From Pannonibacter phragmitetus DSM 14782 (GTDB lineage Bacteria; Pseudomonadota; Alphaproteobacteria; Rhizobiales; Stappiaceae): a stretch of DNA of 64,000 nt. The DNA lies in contig NZ_KB908218.1 of NCBI RefSeq assembly GCF_000382365.1, positions 186,001 to 250,000 of the forward strand, given 5' to 3'. This document shows positions 2,070 through 51,387 of this stretch, in pieces; within the stretch, counting starts at the first letter, position 1, and the number at the start of each line of letters is the position of its first letter. The translations under genes were made by a program, and so were the position numbers. The notes under the pieces are model-generated. The model saw only the letters and a program-made list of their open reading frames with translations. It had not been told where the DNA came from and did no database searches.

Positions 2070-2183
2070 AAAATGGGCATGTCTCTGATTTCATTCAGGT
2101 AACAGGTTCCGTACAATTTTAATAAAATCTGTTGTCCAGAAACTGCGGCGTTTTCTCCCGGCGCGAAAATGAGCTGAACCGAT

Positions 2184-2192
2184 TGTGGACAA
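2184..2192 (-). other. DnaA-box-like 9-mer
   Basis: On the minus strand it reads TTGTCCACA, 8 of 9 bases of the DnaA consensus. A weaker 7-of-9 match, TAATCCACT, follows at 2206-2214. Confidence 0.55.
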
Positions 2193-2290
2193 CGAATGAT
2201 CCCGGTAATCCACTCACAAGAATAAGAAACAGATTCAAATCAATCAGAGACTCCCTTTATAGGGGCCTGCCTGGGATAAAGGACAAAGCC

Positions 2291-3319
2291 ATGAAGTCAT
2301 CCGACCGTGCCGTCATGAGGGTGCTCGCAGGCGAACGCCTGTGGCCGCCTCCCATCTGGATGATGCGGCAGGCTGGACGCTATCTGCCGGAGTACCGGGA
2401 GGTCAGGGCGAAGGCGAAGAACTTCCTCGATTTCTGCTACAATCCGGATCTGGCAACCGAAGTCACGCTTCAGCCGATCCGCCGCTATGGCTTTGATGCA
2501 TCGATCCTGTTCTCGGACATCTTCGTTGTTCCCGATGCCATCGGCTATCCGGTTCGCTTTGAAGAGGGACGTGGTCCTGTGCTTGAGCCCTTGAGCGAAG
2601 CGATCCTTGATAAGCTGGACCAGTCACGGGCAGACAAGCACCTCGATCCGGTCATTGAGACCGTAACGCGGCTGCGCCGCGAGCTCCCTGAGGAGACAAC
2701 GCTTCTCGGCTTCTGCGGTGCCCCATGGACCGTTGCGTGCTATTCTGTCGCCGGACATACGACGCAGGACCAGACGGCAGCCCGTGTGGGTGCCTATCGC
2801 AATCCTGCCCTGATGCAGCGGTTCATCGATCAGCTGGTGACCGCCTCGATCCGCTATCTGATCCGCCAGCTCGATGCCGGCGCCGATGCGGTGCAGATCT
2901 TTGACACCTGGGCCGGGGTTCTGGATGAGGAAGGCTTCCGCAGGTGGTCTATCGAGCCCACCAGAGCGATTGTCGAGGGTGTGAAGGGTGCCCGCCCCGG
3001 CGCACGCATCATCGGCTTCCCGAAGGCCTCCTCGGCCCGTCTGGAGGCATATGTGGCCGGCACGGGCGTGGATGCGGTCGGCCTGGACTGGACCGCACCC
3101 GATCATGTGGCGCAGGCGATCCAGAAAAAGGTCCCGGTGCAGGGCAATCTGGACCCGATGCGGCTGGTGGCCGGCGGGGCCGCGCTTGATGAGGGCATCA
3201 CCCATGTTCTGAAGGCGCTGGGGCAGGGGCCGCTGATCTTCAATCTCGGCCATGGCGTAACACCTGAAACCGATCCGGCGCATGTGGCACGGATGGTTAA
3301 ACGCGTCCGTCAGGGCTGA
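2291..3319 (+). CDS. hemE: Uroporphyrinogen decarboxylase
   Basis: Decarboxylates the four acetate side chains of uroporphyrinogen III to give coproporphyrinogen III in haem synthesis. The 342-aa length is standard. The signature [11 protein letters not shown] is at residues 26-36, the catalytic aspartate is in LFSDIFVV (Asp76), and NLGHGV with the conserved histidine is near 318-323. The start at 2291 follows an AAGGA ribosome site; a reading-frame extension upstream to 2132 would run through the origin and has no family similarity. hemJ follows 10 bp later, so the two haem genes are probably cotranscribed. Position next to the origin is typical for alphaproteobacteria. Confidence 0.97.
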
Positions 3320-50107: not shown

Positions 50108-50122
50108 TTAACGGCAGATTAA
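50108..50122. promoter_or_regulatory. Perfect CtrA box before the first small protein gene
   Basis: TTAACGGCAGATTAA is an exact TTAA-N7-TTAA, 42 bp before the ATG at 50165 and only 7 bp after the ligase stop. Position and sequence fit direct CtrA control of the small gene. Confidence 0.65.
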
Positions 50123-50164: not shown

Positions 50165-50365
50165 ATGAGCAGCGCATCCATCGCAGCCGCGCTTGTCGGG
50201 GCAACACAGGCCCAGACCCAGCAGCAGCTTCAGGCCAAGATGCTGAAGATGTCCATGCAGCCGGATCAGTCCATTGTGGCCATGCTGGATCAGGCGGCTT
50301 CCTCCGGTTCCGGATCTTCGCCGCTTGCCGCAGGTACCGGCGGGCTTGTCGACGTTACCGTCTGA
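50165..50365 (+). CDS. Small YjfB-like putative motility protein
   Basis: A 66-aa protein. The N-terminal helix ASIAAALVGATQAQTQQQLQ and the following KMLKMSMQPDQSIVAML resemble the YjfB putative-motility family; the tail ends in G-G-L-V-D-V-T-V. The ribosome site AGGAAAGG precedes the ATG. It is predicted soluble, without signal peptide or cysteine. A perfect CtrA box lies 42 bp upstream and a possible terminator follows. The family match is by eye; the biochemical role is unknown. It shares its C-terminal pattern with the next two small genes. Confidence 0.7.
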   Translation: MSSASIAAALVGATQAQTQQQLQAKMLKMSMQPDQSIVAMLDQAASSGSGSSPLAAGTGGLVDVTV

Positions 50366-50403
50366 CCACCTCCAGAAACGTCCCGCTCAAGCCCTCCCGC
50401 CCT

Positions 50404-50437
50404 GGCCAAAGCCCGTCCGGGCTGGAGCTTTTTGGCC
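50404..50437 (+). terminator. Possible terminator after the 66-aa gene
   Basis: GGCCAAA (50404-50410) can pair with TTTGGCC (50431-50437) around an inner AGCCCG/CGGGCT stem, with a T5 run inside the right arm. The inner loop is tight, so this is uncertain. Confidence 0.4.
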
Positions 50438-50521
50438 GTTTACCAAGTTTTCCTCTGATAAAATCAACTGGCGGGAATCAGGGTAGTGATTCCGTAATAT
50501 TTGGCCTCTTTGATTTTATGG

Positions 50522-50536
50522 TTAATCAATAGTTAA
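50522..50536. promoter_or_regulatory. Perfect CtrA box in the AT-rich region
   Basis: TTAATCAATAGTTAA is an exact TTAA-N7-TTAA, 195 bp before the ATG at 50731. The AT-rich context raises the chance of a random match, so it is weaker evidence than the box at 50108. Confidence 0.55.
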
Positions 50537-50730
50537 GGCCTTATTTGTGCCCCTCTGATTTTATTGGGTTATTTCTATACTAACCTAGCGTAATTAGACT
50601 TTTTAATAAAATTTTAGATAATTTGCCTGATTCGTTGTAATGTTTGCTTTGGGTCTGTGGCCTATCTTATCCTCCGTGGCATTCCAGCAATCTTGCCGTT
50701 CGCCGGCAGATGCTCACGATGGAGGTGCAC

Positions 50731-50976
50731 ATGGCGGAGATCGAAAGCTACCGCGGTGTTCCAGCCTCTGCGCTGAGAGAGGAGCAAAACCTCTCGGAAC
50801 GCCGCACTGAACGGTTCGAGGAATTCAACGCAAGGCGCAGCGCCATGCTGGCCGAAGCGGTGAACCGCGAAGCGAACAGTAAGGCGAACCGCGCAGAGCA
50901 ATTGAGTGAAGATGCCGATCGCATCGCGCGCCGTGCCGTTACCGGTATGGGAAAACGCATCGATGTGACGGTCTGA
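50731..50976 (+). CDS. Small charged helical protein, C-terminal IDVTV
   Basis: An 81-aa protein. Residues about 15-70 are highly charged (Arg, Glu) and predicted helical, probably coiled coil; the tail is G-K-R-I-D-V-T-V. GGAGG 6 bp before ATG 50731 makes this start clear; a longer frame from 50644 is unlikely. It has no membrane segment or signal. It forms a pair with the next gene, 57 bp away. I do not recognise a family beyond the shared tail. Function unknown. Confidence 0.65.
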   Translation: MAEIESYRGVPASALREEQNLSERRTERFEEFNARRSAMLAEAVNREANSKANRAEQLSEDADRIARRAVTGMGKRIDVTV

Positions 50977-51033
50977 TCCCGGCATTCTCCGGGCTCCGGC
51001 TGGCGCAGGCATCAACTGGAAAGGGCTTGAGTT

Positions 51034-51258
51034 ATGGTTGCAATTTCCGGAACTGCATCGGCTGATCTCGCTGCGTCGGGCGTGCGTCCTGACTATTCCG
51101 CCAGGGCTGCGCAGGATACTGCCCGGGTTGAGCGTCAGGCCTCGGAACGCCAGACGGAAGAGCGCCGCGAGACCGTGCAGGAGACGTCCCGCCAGGAAGA
51201 ACAGCGCGAAAGCCGCAAGATTCCTGGTCTCGGCAATGCGGTGGACATCACCGCCTGA
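51034..51258 (+). CDS. Small charged protein, C-terminal VDITA
   Basis: A 74-aa protein. The N terminus is small and polar; residues about 30-62 are almost entirely Glu, Arg, Gln and Ser (a charged helix), and the end is G-L-G-N-A-V-D-I-T-A. GGAAAGGG precedes the ATG. Same orientation as, and probably cotranscribed with, the 81-aa gene; a strong terminator follows. Family unknown to me. The G-x-x-V-D-I tail recalls YjfB-type proteins. Confidence 0.65.
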   Translation: MVAISGTASADLAASGVRPDYSARAAQDTARVERQASERQTEERRETVQETSRQEEQRESRKIPGLGNAVDITA

Positions 51259-51287
51259 CGGTGGACGGCTTCACCAGCAGAACCATG

Positions 51288-51315
51288 GCCCCGCTCCGGC
51301 GGGGCTTTGTTTTTT
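51288..51315 (+). terminator. Intrinsic terminator after the small-protein genes
   Basis: GCCCCGC (51288-51294), TCCG loop, GCGGGGC (51299-51305), then TTTGTTTTTT. Confidence 0.88.
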
Positions 51316-51387
51316 GCAGGGCTGTGTTTTTTGCGGGGCTGGCGGTGATGAAGGGCGGGGTTGTTTCCGCAACCATCCGCCGCCCGC

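Follow-up and report, generated by a model that had tools for sequence, protein, structure and literature searches.

Three neighbouring small proteins with a common C-terminal tail in Pannonibacter and its relatives

The gene trio and its chromosomal slot

The 64-kb stretch of DNA analysed here (the window) contains three small genes on the + strand, designated hereafter as p1, p2 and p3. The p1 gene (50165..50365) encodes a polypeptide of 66 amino acids which, judged by its profile match, is a divergent member of the YjfB family (PF14070). The genes p2 (50731..50976) and p3 (51034..51258), both likewise on the + strand, encode polypeptides of 81 and 74 amino acids of no known family. Searches with p2 and p3 against Pfam and NCBIfam returned weak names only (E 0.03 to 0.07, far under the cut-offs), there was no match in PHROGs, and neither body matched YjfB in Pfam up to E 1. 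In a plasmid search at E 0.01, p3 and one gammaproteobacterial-type YjfB were both without a match.

The p2 reading frame extends upstream, giving 110 amino acids from a TTG at 50644. The methionine at 50731 is preceded by GGAGGT and is aligned in 49 of 49 p2 sequences, an agreement that is partly circular as starts were chosen by length. Approximate dN/dS values against genome G008 were 0.10 for p1, 0.33 for p2 and 0.16 for p3, from which all three look like real genes. Terminator-like hairpins followed by T-rich tails, recognised by consensus match only, are located 3' of p1 (50410..50433, +) and 3' of p3 (51287..51316, +). Based on these hairpins and the gap of 57 nt between p2 and p3, the trio may be expressed as two transcripts, p1 and p2-p3.

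The trio occupies a slot that runs from an acyl-CoA ligase gene to tlpA–argH. Profile searches identified the window flanks as ETF alpha, HBD (3-hydroxybutyryl-CoA dehydrogenase), AMP-binding acyl-CoA ligase, TlpA, ArgH and LysA, and homologs of these were found in the 50 other p3 loci (TlpA and ArgH in 50 each, ETF alpha, HBD and LysA in 48 each, the ligase in 44). The distance from the end of p3 to TlpA was 16–384 nt in 49 loci and 1839 nt in L088. The locus is thus surrounded by metabolic genes, not flagellar ones; an inspection of the neighbourhood, which the preliminary description had proposed in connection with motility, found no flagellar genes beside the trio.

A pattern derived from the p3 alignment, including part of the tail described below, identified 32 named loci, the closest being from Pannonibacter indicus at 95%; the remainder were mostly from Roseibium, Labrenzia, Pannonibacter and Stappia, with some other alphaproteobacteria. 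Among 87 genomes of one taxonomic family, which we take to be Stappiaceae, p3 was present in 51 and p2 in 46 (E 0.001), and the YjfB profile gave matches in 44 (E 0.05).

A tail shared by proteins with unrelated bodies

The translated sequences end GGLVDVTV in p1 (50339..50362, +), GKRIDVTV in p2 (50950..50973, +) and GNAVDITA in p3 (51232..51255, +). Among the 512 ORFs of at least 40 amino acids in the window, the pattern G..[VI]D[VI]T[VA]$ fits these three only, confirming the C-terminal motif reported in the preliminary description, and no further ORF fits a relaxed form. The chance of such a tail, estimated from residue frequencies, is about 6e-7 per protein. A scan of the whole genome with the looser pattern NTNGAYRTNNNNGYNTRA, in which genes with TAG stops were left out, gave 16 matches (control, 5+9). 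Three of the 16 were p1–p3, six belonged to one contig-end repeat ending TLDMVA, and the other seven either had no Gly at -8 or did not end an ORF. The relaxed tail was found in two of 8419 other ORFs (35–400 amino acids) of the 51 regions compared, both being copies of a single ORF from related genomes.

These 51 regions comprise the window locus and the loci of the 50 other p3 genomes. Since the search that selected the genomes used full-length p3 with its tail, a p3 without its tail could escape; within the regions, p1–p3 were located by models begun from queries minus their last ten residues. By body, p1 was located in 49 of 51 loci (absent from L079 and L112), p2 in 49 (absent from L093 and L112) and p3 in all 51, giving 149 proteins. 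The strict form G..[VIL]D[VI][TS][VAIL] was present in 43/49 p1, 37/49 p2 and 51/51 p3 sequences. All 149 proteins have G at -8, D or N at -4, one of V, I, L or M at -3 and A, V, I or L at -1, and the tail is always strictly C-terminal. The glycine at -10, found in 147/149, is part of the motif; N replaces the D at -4 in 9/149, and I or L also occurs as the terminal residue in p2. The pattern proposed initially therefore holds but is slightly narrow: it omits the glycine at -10, excludes N in place of D and does not cover the L, I or other residues found at its variable positions. Absence of the tail from orthologs or from most homologs, which the preliminary description had named as speaking against its proposal, was looked for and not found, in genomes selected with whole p3.

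Sequence identity was calculated after removal of near-duplicates (26 p1, 33 p2 and 29 p3 sequences). Plain identity in the last eight columns was no higher than in the body for p1 (0.58 and 0.58), little higher for p2 (0.52 vs 0.45) and clearly higher only for p3 (0.80 vs 0.56). At identical tail residues, pairs of sequences shared the codon in 0.52 (p1), 0.37 (p2) and 0.55 (p3) of cases, compared with 0.42, 0.42 and 0.43 in the respective bodies, so that tail codon identity is somewhat above that of the body for p1 and p3. Since codons are common in only 0.37–0.55 of pairs where the residues are identical, the constraint acts on the protein. With its key positions kept in 149/149 proteins, its bodies unrelated and its synonymous codons varying, the tail appears to be under selection, and the preliminary description's remarks on differing codons and on selection for the tail are borne out.

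Genomes lacking p3 showed what else may occupy the slot. It carries YjfB-like tail proteins in genus g7 (L229, L230, L256–L258), and also in g3 (L227, L228) and in G002 (L249). In g2 (L246, L253) a p3-like protein ending GVGQTLDISV or GVGERVDISV lies ahead of TlpA, with a different left flank, and in L226, from another taxonomic family, a protein ending GVGNVVDISA is encoded in the ligase–ArgH interval. A tail protein was found in 64/87 family genomes, including 51 with p3, two of g3, three of g2 and eight of g7 (slot position read in all of g7 except G074, G078 and G080). None was detected in the other 23, including 16/16 of g5, where the slot itself lay outside the search. The tail is kept in one slot among relatives while the small proteins there differ, its consensus in the trio and slot relatives being G-[LMVI]-G-x-x-[VIL]-[DN]-[VI]-[TS]-[VA]-COOH.

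The tail also occurs away from the slot. A scan of the 87 genomes yielded 108 matches to pattern VTNGAYATHWSNGYNTGA and 21 to the control, and of 20 selected off-locus matches 12 end an ORF with Gly at -8 and eight do not. Nine of the 12 are small proteins (L246, L249, L251, L253, L256–L259, L262). L251:3018-3197 encodes a small protein of G002 ending GTGNKLDISV that is separate from the slot gene of the same genome in L249. A small acidic tail protein (EGPGPDxxNDHDxDD) was seen at L262:3037-3216, where it adjoins recF, and at L259:2922-3101, in a recF-like/gyrB interval; its distribution is patchy (4/87 family genomes), and its gene has a perfect CtrA-type box in L262 and none in L259. Longer ORFs of 181 and 156 amino acids in L248 and L250 (G001 and G002), putative genes, end GSVLDISV and GHVLDISV, and a 27-amino-acid ORF in L264 carries the tail with Gly at -8. 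Further afield, the p1 profile matched in 9/367 genomes of the class. Two adjacent, different tail proteins were seen in each of G738 and G856, both of one other family (L272, L273, L279), one protein ending GTGNAVDISA or GTGKAVDVSV and the other GTGKIVDKSV; no tail ORF was seen in L278.

Comparison of whole profiles with hhalign gave 88–92% probability for each pair of p1, p2 and p3, in alignments anchored on the tail. Without the last 12 residues the values for the three pairs dropped to 0.4, 1.3 and 2.5%, those against p1 being 0.4% for p2 and 1.3% for p3. The bodies are unrelated in sequence, as the preliminary description had indicated in noting that the rest of the three proteins differs. 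AlphaFold2 models, both of low confidence, suggest two helices for p1 (mean pLDDT 60) and one long helix for p3 (mean pLDDT 66), with the tail unstructured in each. These data bear on the view that p1–p3 are very old duplicates whose bodies have diverged past recognition, the tail being the best-kept part of one family. All three are small and are encoded side by side in one slot, the alignment of p1 with p3 spans 57 columns when it includes the tail, and the g2 slot protein resembles a diverged p3. However, the bodies alone reach no more than the 0.4–2.5% given above, the predicted architectures of p1 and p3 appear to differ, and the small acidic recF/gyrB protein points to the tail on an unrelated protein. 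Common descent of this kind, which we regard as unlikely, would moreover concern the origin of the proteins and still need a reason for retention of the tail.

YjfB, flagella and CtrA-type boxes

The match of p1 to PF14070 (YjfB_motility; E 0.0012) covers positions 1–56 of the 57 in the profile, with a score of 19.3 bits that does not reach the cut-off of 27 bits; matches above the cut-off were obtained in 6/87 family genomes. The resemblance to YjfB proposed earlier is thus upheld by a nearly full-length match and by the presence of the tail in 49/49 p1 sequences, although its score remains below the cut-off. At E 0.001, a limit that misses the window p1 itself, PF14070 gave 44 matches in 41 of 398 phylum genomes. 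Of the 34 Pseudomonadota YjfB inspected among these, 32 end G..[VILF][DN][VILMTA].[AV]. L213 (GAQVDEYA) and L234 (GQVVDRRV) keep the G, the hydrophobic residue at -5, the D and a last A or V, the hydrophobic residue at -3 being absent; another YjfB, in L208, ends GRNLNVVA. In a set of 28 wider YjfB tails, which leaves out L213 and L214 (GTQVNTFA), N stands in place of D in 21.

FliM was found in 40/41 YjfB genomes compared with 278/398 in the phylum sample (hypergeometric 3e-6, relatedness ignored). The YjfB genome without FliM, G598, is 68% complete, and the weak match in G458 (7.5e-5) is counted among the 40. Within the family FliM is universal (87/87), which makes a presence-absence comparison uninformative on motility there; moreover, with a tail protein found in 64 of the 87, flagella there do not need it. 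The co-occurrence with flagellar genes that the preliminary description had proposed to examine is accordingly seen among YjfB genomes and says nothing within the family. Ten neighbour proteins in eight YjfB loci of other phylum members included none that was flagellar (two were without a family). One study assigns YjfB, which it calls small and uncharacterised, to a sub-module that also comprises sigma28, FapA and FlgV (PMC11607428). FapA was considered here as a candidate partner.

These tails can be compared with type I secretion signals, in which an ABC exporter reads the C-terminal end. Type I substrates are described as carrying motifs at the extreme C terminus in which hydrophobic residues come after an Asp, or a terminal Ala after Ser/Thr, and in one report a single added residue impaired secretion, although the motif was not essential in work cited there (PMC2642768). 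The tail partly resembles such an end in its D, T or S and A or V, and in being always terminal. However, glycines at -8 and -10 are foreign to a type I signal, GGxGxD repeats are absent from the p1–p3 sequences as inspected by eye, and the slot is without exporter genes, its neighbours being the acyl-CoA ligase gene, tlpA and argH. The N for D in most of the wider YjfB tails also speaks against this function, which would leave the tie between YjfB and FliM unexplained, and we consider it very unlikely.

The trio contains sequences matching the binding consensus of the cell-cycle regulator CtrA, TTAA-N7-TTAA, whose usual place is given as -35 in the available part of the source (PMC11264516). 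The window has three copies of the consensus, where 0.01 would be expected. A perfect box before p1, TTAACGGCAGATTAA (50108..50122, +), ends 42 nt ahead of the start codon, and a second, TTAATCAATAGTTAA (50522..50536, +), is a sequence match in the p1–p2 interval. The 250 nt upstream of each gene were searched in 49 p1, 49 p2 and 51 p3 loci. For p1, 38/49 loci have a perfect box, 36–54 nt from the start with one at 119 nt, and the remaining 11 have a one-mismatch box at 24–48 nt. For p2, perfect boxes were found in 2/49 (the window and G008 only) and one-mismatch boxes in 8/49, and neither kind was found at the 51 p3 loci. A scan for sigma-70 promoters gave one site against 0.8 expected and was disregarded. 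In many g6 loci (L089, L101, L120 and others) a TTTACCTTTGAATTCAG-like stretch recurs about 50–65 nt ahead of the p2 gene and may be a separate promoter.

Among the slot YjfB genes of g7, all five examined (L229, L230, L256–L258) have a perfect box, as has the YjfB gene of L235 from another family in the class. The box of L227 has one mismatch and those of L228 and L249 have two. Four tail genes from other parts of the order (L226, L231–L233) are without a perfect box, as are L246 and L253 (g2) and nine distinct tail ORFs in seven class-level genomes, two of these ORFs having a one-mismatch box. Upstream of the p3-like small gene of L246 and L253 (about 2631–2893) a repeated TCACGTTCTGATAC-like motif was seen.

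From the box, we infer that the trio module is probably under CtrA control. In another alphaproteobacterium motility is CtrA-dependent, while the flagellar genes tested there were without clear boxes, according to the part of that study available (PMC3692519). The link to motility suggested in the preliminary description is therefore supported indirectly, by the FliM association and the CtrA-type box, and not by the locus, which lies among metabolic genes.

Timed synthesis coupled to proteolysis is common in alphaproteobacteria, and the tail might accordingly be a degradation signal, of ClpXP type or read by a PDZ-protease, giving CtrA-timed proteins a short life. The exact C-terminal place, the end in A or V (in p2 also I or L) and the CtrA-type promoter at p1 would suit such a signal. 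However, the G-x-G, the D/N and the alternating hydrophobic residues exceed, to our knowledge, the short C-degrons, and YjfB proteins from other classes, where CtrA-type boxes are absent, retain a similar tail. We consider a degradation signal quite unlikely.

A possible docking peptide

A tail that is strictly terminal, alternates in hydrophobicity and is carried by unrelated bodies has the features of a peptide that docks on one receptor, and the CtrA-type box and the tie between YjfB and FliM suggest the flagellar or polar machinery as its place. Our tentative preference, which comes near to an even chance, is that the proteins are motility-linked adaptors, CtrA-timed and docking by one C-terminal peptide onto a common putative partner, a possibility that the preliminary description had also named. 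In such a scheme CtrA, acting at the box near -35, would activate p1 at the time when flagella and poles form; a flexible linker would present the tail, which, with its alternating hydrophobic residues, could pair with a single common receptor in the manner of a beta-strand, its free carboxylate taking part. The putative receptor would belong to the flagellar or polar machinery and the differing bodies would be the cargo recruited.

A wider reading, possible though rather doubtful, is that the tail represents a C-terminal recruitment code used by several unrelated small-protein families for one conserved flagellar or polar receptor, while the bodies turn over in the slot. The code would take the form G-x-G-x-x-[VIL]-[DN]-[VIT]-x-[AV]-COOH here and G-x-x-[VIL]-[DN]-[VIT]-x-[AV]-COOH in YjfB at large, and its slot part would extend to Pannonibacter, Roseibium and relatives, mostly with a CtrA-type box.

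A known peptide of this type is the NWETF pentapeptide of chemoreceptors, a C-terminal docking peptide with a known partner. Both it and the proposed adaptors rely on a short peptide at the extreme C terminus to recruit one partner to several proteins; however, its sequence is unlike the trio tail, and the receptor of the trio is putative. Members of PF14070 have the same tail at the same place as p1, whose gene differs in having a CtrA-type box and in standing beside two proteins with the shared tail and other bodies. FlgV/BB0268, of the sub-module mentioned above, is likewise small and flagellum-linked, but it differs in having a pair of transmembrane helices and an end peptide described as hydrophobic and containing a basic residue, and no common tail is claimed for FlgV and YjfB in the part of the source available (PMC11607428).

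The YjfB family to which p1 belongs is known but uncharacterised. As far as literature searches reach, p2, p3 and their having a tail in common with p1 are new; titles and abstract starts of open-licence papers on YjfB, CtrA, small proteins and C-terminal motifs described no such tail or trio. Many flagellated bacteria have YjfB, a 'putative motility protein' still to be characterised, and the shared tail and the CtrA-type promoter make its role directly testable. If a common receptor exists, the tail would amount to a bacterial targeting code not described before.

CtrA-type boxes were also seen away from the trio. The 51 regions together contain 59 perfect boxes in 934,729 bases. Ten boxes from beyond 15 kb were inspected; for two the sequence was too short to tell or differed, and eight (L080, L081, L099, L105, L113, L122, L125, L126; about 17.5–17.8 kb of the oriented region) are directly ahead of an ORF starting VIRFENVGLRYGMG that is ftsE-like by eye. 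The third perfect box in the window, TTAAGAGATCCTTAA (2055-2069), precedes hemE (2132-3319, identified by TIGR01464) and lies near a TTATCCACTC stretch. The Caulobacter hemE promoter carries CtrA sites, as stated in the available part of the source (PMC11264516), and the region of this box and TTATCCACTC could possibly be a replication origin.
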